A stretch of 64,000 nucleotides of DNA from Halomicrobium zhouii. GTDB lineage: Archaea > Halobacteriota > Halobacteria > Halobacteriales > Haloarculaceae. Made by a program: the position numbers and the translations under genes. Under the pieces are notes generated by a model that worked only from the letters and a program-made list of their open reading frames with translations, was not told where the DNA came from and made no database searches. The stretch covers positions 124,001-188,000 of the forward strand of contig NZ_FOZK01000005.1 in NCBI RefSeq assembly GCF_900114435.1, read 5' to 3'. Shown one piece after another: positions 55,783 to 56,185 of this stretch (positions within the stretch are counted from its first letter, which is position 1; each line of letters opens with the position of its first letter).

Positions 55783-55864
55783 GCCAGGATGGCCGAACGG
55801 TAAGGCGCACGCCTGGAAAGCGTGTTCCCTTTCGGGATTCTGGGTTCAAATCCCAGTCCTGGCG
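55783..55864 (+). tRNA. tRNA-Ser (anticodon GGA)
   Basis: The acceptor stem GCCAGGA (55783-55789) pairs with TCCTGGC (55857-55863), with discriminator G. The anticodon stem CACGC/GCGTG flanks loop CTGGAAA with anticodon GGA at 55815-55817. A long variable arm (TCCC/GGGA) marks class II and therefore Ser (Leu is excluded by the anticodon). The T arm is CTGGG-TTCAAAT-CCCAG. No CCA is encoded and no intron is present. A CTTAAG-like promoter lies ~30 bases upstream, just after the 79-residue gene. Confidence 0.96.
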
Positions 55865-55870
55865 TCTTCT

Positions 55871-55921
55871 GCGACTGCAATGCGAACGAGGAGCGATAGC
55901 GACGAGTAAGCCAGCAGTCGC
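55871..55921. other. Hairpin behind tRNA-Ser
   Basis: GCGACTGC (55871-55878) pairs with GCAGTCGC (55914-55921), enclosing a GAACGAGGAGCGA-type loop reminiscent of the intergenic repeat family. It could end the tRNA transcript or be part of the repeat array. Confidence 0.4.
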
Positions 55922-55932
55922 GAAGCAACAGT

Positions 55933-55945
55933 GACTGGGATTTGA
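55933..55945 (-). repeat. Inverted copy of the tRNA-Ser T-arm
   Basis: GACTGGGATTTGA is the exact reverse complement of TCAAATCCCAGTC from the T arm of the tRNA-Ser upstream. It lies between the real tRNA and its degenerate direct copy. Confidence 0.6.
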
Positions 55946-55959
55946 GCACGCGAGTCGCA

Positions 55960-56034
55960 GCCCCGGAACGGCCGAACGGAGTGAGGCCGCACGCCCGGAA
56001 CGTCTCGCATCTGTTCAAATCCCAGCCCTGGCGC
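55960..56034 (+). pseudogene. Degenerate tRNA-Ser-like copy
   Basis: A GGCCGAACGG block, a GGCCGCACGCCCGGAACG block and TTCAAATCCCAGCCCTGGCG (56014-56033) align in order with the D-arm, anticodon region and T-arm/acceptor of the tRNA-Ser 169 bases upstream. The last 20 bases differ at one position only. The 5' acceptor strand no longer pairs properly and the anticodon loop is destroyed, so it cannot be a functional tRNA. Confidence 0.65.
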
Positions 56035-56035
56035 T

Positions 56036-56185
56036 CCACGTTTTTCTTCGTCGGGTTTCCTCGCGAGCCTTCGGCTCGCTGTGGAGAGGGCTCCTCGAAA
56101 AACGTGGGCGAAAAAGGCCGGACGACTCGCTCACTTCGTTCGCTCGCGCCCGGGGAAACCGCGCCTTCGGCGCGGTCTGCTGGCG
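56036..56185. other. Array of hairpins between the tRNA region and the DCC gene
   Basis: CCACGTTTTTC (56036-56046) pairs with GAAAAACGTGG (56097-56107), enclosing GCGAGCC-TTC-GGCTCGC. A second compact hairpin ACCGCGCC-TTC-GGCGCGGT lies near 56159-56177. No protein-like frame spans the region. The T-rich and TTC-loop palindromes suggest transcription termination or a small structured RNA. Confidence 0.45.

Follow-up and report, generated by a model that had tools for sequence, protein, structure and literature searches.

The tyrT repeats of Escherichia coli (RtT RNA) are 178-bp repeats that occupy one locus in enteric bacteria and are not known to carry an inverted arm. We take this arrangement to be the closest known system to the haloarchaeal repeat described here, and both consist of tandem repeats behind a tRNA gene, each of which carries the 3ʹ end of that tRNA. 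To our knowledge, no usual class of dispersed repeat, whether transposon-derived, att-site or simple palindrome, accommodates one that draws its arms from the adjacent gene.

We analysed a 64,000-nucleotide stretch of a 4.25-Mb haloarchaeal genome (G000), hereafter called the window (G000:C5:124001-188000). A preliminary description of this DNA had pointed out a tRNA-Ser gene followed by an inverted fragment of its T arm and by a degenerate copy of the tRNA, and had noted that repeated 3ʹ tRNA ends are typical of integration sites, although it judged the interval far too short for an element.

The locus behind tRNA-Ser(GGA)

A single tRNA gene, Ser(GGA) at positions 55783-55864, is called at this locus by ARAGORN and by Rfam. 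It is followed by a gene-free insert of 169 nt, and the parts of the locus are as follows (positions are those of the window).

55783..55864, + strand: tRNA-Ser(GGA) gene (ARAGORN; RF00005, 61.8 bits)
55844..55864, + strand: tail, G53 to N73 of the tRNA, the segment of which a copy lies downstream (sequence comparison; tail copies behind tRNAs of G000 and G146)
55866..55925, + strand: spacer hairpin with arms 55866-55878 and 55914-55925 (sequence; spacer pairing in first units)
55926..55947, + strand: antitail, the inverted tail copy, with a decayed acceptor part and an exact T-arm part at 55933-55945
55950..56008, + strand: hairpin core (fold and covariation)
55950-55954/56004-56008, + strand: core stem P1 (fold and covariation)
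55955/56003, + strand: T.T mismatch of the core
55956-55957/56001-56002, + strand: two pairs of the core, followed by an internal loop
55963-55966/55995-55998, + strand: core stem P2
55969-55973/55985-55989, + strand: core stem P3
56013..56033, + strand: direct tail copy, 20/21 identical, which pairs with the antitail
56034..56060, no strand assigned: flank, which directly adjoins the tRNA at the empty site of congener G146 (locus comparison, L092 versus L099)

Both repeated pieces are present as had been described. The inverted piece at 55933-55945 is the exact reverse complement of 55846-55858 (13/13), and the direct copy at 56013-56033 matches the final 21 bases of the tRNA (55844-55864) at 20 positions. 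When 55865-56060 was shuffled 2000 times, the top direct match was 15/21 and the top inverted match 11/13; because neither real match was ever reached, the pattern is not a product of chance. The inverted fragment is real, but it is not an isolated piece: it is the retained part of a longer, partly decayed inverted tail copy. The sense strand folds as a single long hairpin (z -2.57), in which inverted piece and direct copy form the outer stem by pairing of 55935-55948 with 56012-56025.

The second copy is indeed non-functional as a tRNA, in that the tRNA finders call only Ser(GGA). Its interpretation as a degenerate tRNA-Ser has to be abandoned, since no tRNA is called and the stretch between the arms is a core that is much alike in units behind Phe, Ala, Asn, Arg, Gly and other tRNAs. 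A known Rfam RNA was likewise rejected as an identity for the repeat. At E <= 1, Rfam finds only the tRNA in this stretch of the window, with no RtT match, and at 20 loci of the repeat it finds only tRNAs and one L4 leader. Inspection by eye revealed no bulge-helix-bulge, box C/D or kink-turn motifs.

A class-wide family of tRNA-linked hairpin repeats

The feature that follows tRNA-Ser(GGA) belongs, as a single unit, to a family of tRNA-linked hairpin repeats of the class Halobacteria. Each unit reads, from 5ʹ to 3ʹ, tRNA tail (G53-N73), spacer hairpin, inverted tail copy, conserved hairpin core and direct tail copy, and tandem arrays take the form tail, antitail, tail, antitail, tail. Inserts across the family are about 80-230 nt long and contain no gene. 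A BLAST comparison of the region with its own genome returned 52 places, of which 12 others match the core at E 4.8e-5 or better, and the neighbours of these cores are tRNA genes of many kinds. A covariance model built from 15 units (R1) gave 46 matches at E <= 1 in the same genome. All but five of these lie 35-462 nt downstream of a tRNA gene on the same strand, which amounts to 41 units behind 30 tRNA genes; RF00005 lists 53 tRNA genes in this genome and misses some ARAGORN calls, for example Trp. The five remaining matches comprise one orphan with an E value of 4.6e-13 and four with E >= 0.056. The orphan core (G000:C2:782871-782925; L010/L054) has no called tRNA and adjoins A+T-rich DNA. 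As a separate observation, a cluster of at least a dozen tRNA genes (G000:C2:253014-258675; L116) carries an R1 unit only at Arg-TCG.

At E <= 0.001, R1 finds the repeat in 141 of 145 Halobacteria genomes and in 56 of 58 genera. Matches in a sample of the phylum, searched at E <= 1e-4, occur in 31 of 33 members of the class versus 1 of 163 other genomes, this sole outside match being a candidate in G216 (2.4e-5). An exact core pattern searched against genomes of named species recovered 15 stretches, all with haloarchaeal names; a tRNA lies just upstream on the same strand in 14, and the other stretch (L070) starts 124 bases before the match. When one listed match per genome was inspected in 60 genomes, 58 were downstream of a tRNA on the same strand. 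The sole inverted core in this sample lies between the antitail and tail of a tRNA-Glu (L209), and at one site no tRNA was called, yet tail-like sequence is there (L233).

The preliminary description had considered integration debris as the origin of the arrangement, a view that it held to be incompatible with conservation in many genera. Given its presence in 56 of the 58 sampled genera, the feature belongs to a class-wide family of repeats and represents neither debris left by a single integration nor a tRNA copy that has broken down. Conservation across genera alone is no proof of function, because units come and go between congeners.

The arms of the units match the tRNA genes that they follow. 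Among 57 units, the tail copy agrees with its own tRNA at 19.8 of 21 positions versus 14.2 for other tRNAs, and the own tRNA is strictly the best match in 50. The inverted T part also tracks the own tRNA, to a degree reached in 0/1000 permutations for the 57 units and in 0/500 for 97 first units; because the T loop is so uniform among tRNAs, no more than 10/57 single units have their own tRNA as the strictly best match. Since the acceptor part of the inverted arm retains a weak own-tRNA signal (3.87 versus 3.38, 0/500), the arm looks like a formerly complete inverted tail copy whose acceptor part has decayed, and by eye it is nearly whole at Lys-TTT and Gly-GCC. In 73 of 96 first units, versus 41% of shuffles, the beginning of the spacer pairs with the 3ʹ half of the spacer. 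This beginning is T-rich and could terminate transcription ahead of the unit, which would count against a structure in a trailer RNA.

The core stems covary strongly. A MAFFT alignment of 15 units, made without any fitting to the structure, shows changes on both sides in 7 of 12 predicted pairs, and two P1 pairs vary in 8 and 9 sequences without a single broken pair. Among 75 distinct sequences from the class, in an alignment that leans towards the structure because it is fitted to the model, 94.9% of cells are paired, versus 80.0% when shuffled and 27-58% when slid, and 111 cells are changed on both sides versus 31 in shuffles. The units of G000 and G146, a set that includes a few weak and opposite-strand matches, are 93.1% paired, with 168 two-sided changes versus 46. 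The covariation of either set was reached in 0/500 shuffles. Recurrent features of the cores are a T.T mismatch and an internal loop of CAG/AA. Taken as a test of the sense strand, counts of G.U versus A.C are mixed, with 28 to 3 in alignment A2 but 11 to 2 once the outer stem is removed; alignment A3 gives 33 to 13 and 9 to 8.

The orientation of the core is almost invariant. Among 102 matches from three genomes, 90 follow a listed tRNA and share its orientation, none is opposite to its tRNA, 2 are nearest a same-orientation tRNA further on, and 10 are without a listed tRNA. Because the core is bounded by inverted repeats, DNA exchange via the arms alone should yield both orientations. The fixed polarity therefore points either to selection on the sense strand or to a polar copying step, and its near invariance suggests that the repeat is probably kept for its sense-strand structure.

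Turnover at tRNA loci and sharing of cores

Comparison of the Ser-GGA locus in seven congeners shows that units differ between close relatives. Units occur at this tRNA in the window’s genome, G059, G114 and G147, where they are not of one kind, and no unit is seen in G041 and G145. In G146, whose neighbouring gene is 95% identical to that of the window, the tRNA end runs directly into the flank that follows the tail copy in the window. Empty and filled sites join exactly at N73. The suggestion that a repeated tRNA 3ʹ end marks integration thus holds to the extent that the empty site of G146 reveals an insertion-like event, but this event is not the debris of one integration. A second pair of sites is found at Gly-GCC, which is empty in G146 and filled in G000, where 57 nt of flank occur on both sides of the insert; flank duplication is clear in 8 of 51 units. 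Tail copy number also varies between congeners (Ile 0 versus 2, Glu-TTC 2 versus 5). Pairs of empty and filled sites fit gain and loss alike, because deletion between tail copies restores the empty site exactly. Paired units are 95.8% identical versus 88.8% and 79.3% for their flanks, an excess that is biased because the pairs were picked for similar cores.

Cores are shared among different tRNA genes. The nearest core in another genome lies behind a tRNA of a different anticodon for 128 of 166 units. It lies at the same anticodon for the other 38, versus 5.4 expected at random, which argues for some descent in place; likewise, the nearest G000 core is at the same tRNA for 21 of 47 G146 units, and to that extent the pattern reflects simple inheritance. 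The idea that every tRNA locus has passed on its unit by vertical descent alone is only partly true and was rejected as a general rule. At Arg-GCG, arms and flanks agree between genomes and the core differs, as in a core swap within conserved arms.

Several further arrangements were encountered. A second hairpin module, which ends with GCTCAGT or GCTCACT, is connected to the tail of the host tRNA at index 8 (about C61) and not at G53. It was found downstream of tRNAs at nine loci (L108, L114, L115, L116, L121, L130, L145, L152 and L220), versus a mean of 0.12 with shuffled tails. Two congeners have the same arms at Arg-CCT with different modules between them. In L100 (Ser-GGA, G147) and L150 (Gly-CCC, G146), another hairpin is inserted into the core, and a short GAAGTC/GAGTC-type duplication flanks this insert. 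The L013 unit, which follows tRNA-Ser(CGA), stops right before an open frame, whose product we take to resemble a TnpB-type protein.

Possible origins and comparison with known systems

The best reading of the data as a whole, which we consider somewhat probable, is that a modular core moves between tRNA loci and that its arms are rewritten from the recipient tRNA. The core would be copied as a module from locus to locus via the T-loop sequence common to most tRNAs, the arms would be rewritten by recombination or by fold-back template switching, and losses would result when direct copies of the tail recombine. Exchange via the T loop by itself would be expected to produce cores of either orientation, and such a process therefore calls for selection or for an additional polar step. 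The fixed polarity and the recurrent internal loops hint that the folded sense strand matters, perhaps most simply as a structure in the 3ʹ trailer RNA of the tRNA.

A site-specific micro-element is an unlikely alternative in which a short circle would be inserted at the T arm by a trans-acting tyrosine recombinase, such that the tail duplication would represent an att repeat. Tail duplication, exact joining and empty sites are the outcome of tRNA integration, a recombinase would account for the polarity, and PMC8371274 names the T stem-loop and the 3ʹ end as known integrase targets. The genome has three PF00589 integrase genes. However, none of them is on contig C5, and there is no PF00589 match within the window, in agreement with the preliminary description. 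No core was found in viral contigs (searched with one exact pattern) or in phages, and a plasmid search gave only five weak partial matches (two Haladaptatus, three Rhizobium or Agrobacterium). Neither an integrase or cargo between the repeats nor a free viral or phage form was found. Moreover, a carried att site leaves unexplained how an inverted arm and a tail copy come to match each of 30 tRNAs around a shared core. Prophage or att debris as a full account was rejected, given the class-wide spread, the host-matched inverted arm and the lack of viral copies in these searches.

It is also conceivable, if improbable, that the repeat is a selfish or domesticated structured RNA that lacks its own enzyme and spreads over tRNA genes throughout the class. 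Its core would enter 3ʹ ends in one polarity, and its arms would be rewritten by copying templated by the tRNA or pre-tRNA, which would build the tail-antitail-tail arrays.

We think it quite doubtful that the units are plain inherited trailer elements, in other words an old functional RNA structure that has repeatedly been lost, in which selection maintains the pairing of the arms and nothing is exchanged between tRNAs. Class-wide spread, covariation, fixed polarity and the excess of nearest cores at the same anticodon would all suit such an origin. It fits poorly with congeners whose units at one and the same tRNA differ in kind, with the majority of nearest cores at another anticodon, and with array sizes that change between congeners.

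A purely mutational product of fold-back template switching at tRNA ends, neither mobile nor functional, would yield the order of tail, inverted tail and tail, and would agree with the flank duplicated at Gly-GCC and in other units. We nevertheless judge it very unlikely, since a conserved core with the same internal loops and fixed polarity across the class would be unexpected, and copying errors would tend to repair mismatches.

Finally, imperfect hairpins in arrays recall REP/BIME and palindrome-associated elements, but a reverse transcriptase or Y1 (HUH) transposase as the driving enzyme, as for REP or IS200/IS605-like repeats, is largely refuted and barely credible, in that RVT_1 (reverse transcriptase) occurs in 4/145 class genomes versus units in 141/145, and Y1_Tnp, present in 99/145 genomes, is unrelated to unit number (Spearman 0.09, p 0.30). 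Because unit numbers derive from 30 scored candidates in each genome, they are minimum values for the richest genomes; on this count, G144, G089 and G023 have 27, 28 and 20 units without a Y1 match, and G014 has 8 Y1 matches and no unit. Neither enzyme is thus supported as a driver, and only families missed by the RVT_1 and Y1_Tnp profiles would revive the idea.

The preferred reading, a core that moves between tRNA loci with arms rewritten from each recipient, would make this repeat a testable case of host-templated spread; alternatively, it would allow the idea of a trailer RNA structure common to many tRNAs to be tested. The repeat adjoins essential genes in nearly all sampled haloarchaea, turns over between congeners and retains a covarying hairpin of fixed polarity. 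Its existence also cautions against taking a repeated tRNA 3ʹ end in a haloarchaeon, on its own, as proof of an integrated virus.

We found no description of these repeats in the open-access literature searched, including the parts of PMC3119063, PMC8371274 and PMC7714728 that were consulted, although an earlier description elsewhere is possible. Like the haloarchaeal palindrome-associated elements (PATEs; treated in PMC3119063), the SMR elements and REP/BIME, the units are short, gene-free, palindromic, dispersed and arrayed. Unlike those elements, they are tied to tRNA genes, have arms that track the host gene and bear no relation to Y1. They resemble tRNA-integrated viruses and plasmids in the duplicated tail, the intact tRNA and the empty sites in relatives, but differ in that the inserts are gene-free, have an inverted arm and a core shared class-wide, and have no carrier that we could find. 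Integron attC sites are similar in their imperfect hairpin with recurrent unpaired positions, variable tip, outer stem starting with GTT and occurrence in arrays, whereas the haloarchaeal units lack cassette genes and have arms that track the host tRNA. The tyrT/RtT repeats differ in that the haloarchaeal units occur at dozens of tRNA genes throughout a class and possess a shared covarying core and an inverted arm. We therefore rate the haloarchaeal repeat as a new kind, set apart from tyrT by its inverted arm, its shared core, its association with many tRNAs and its spread through a whole class.
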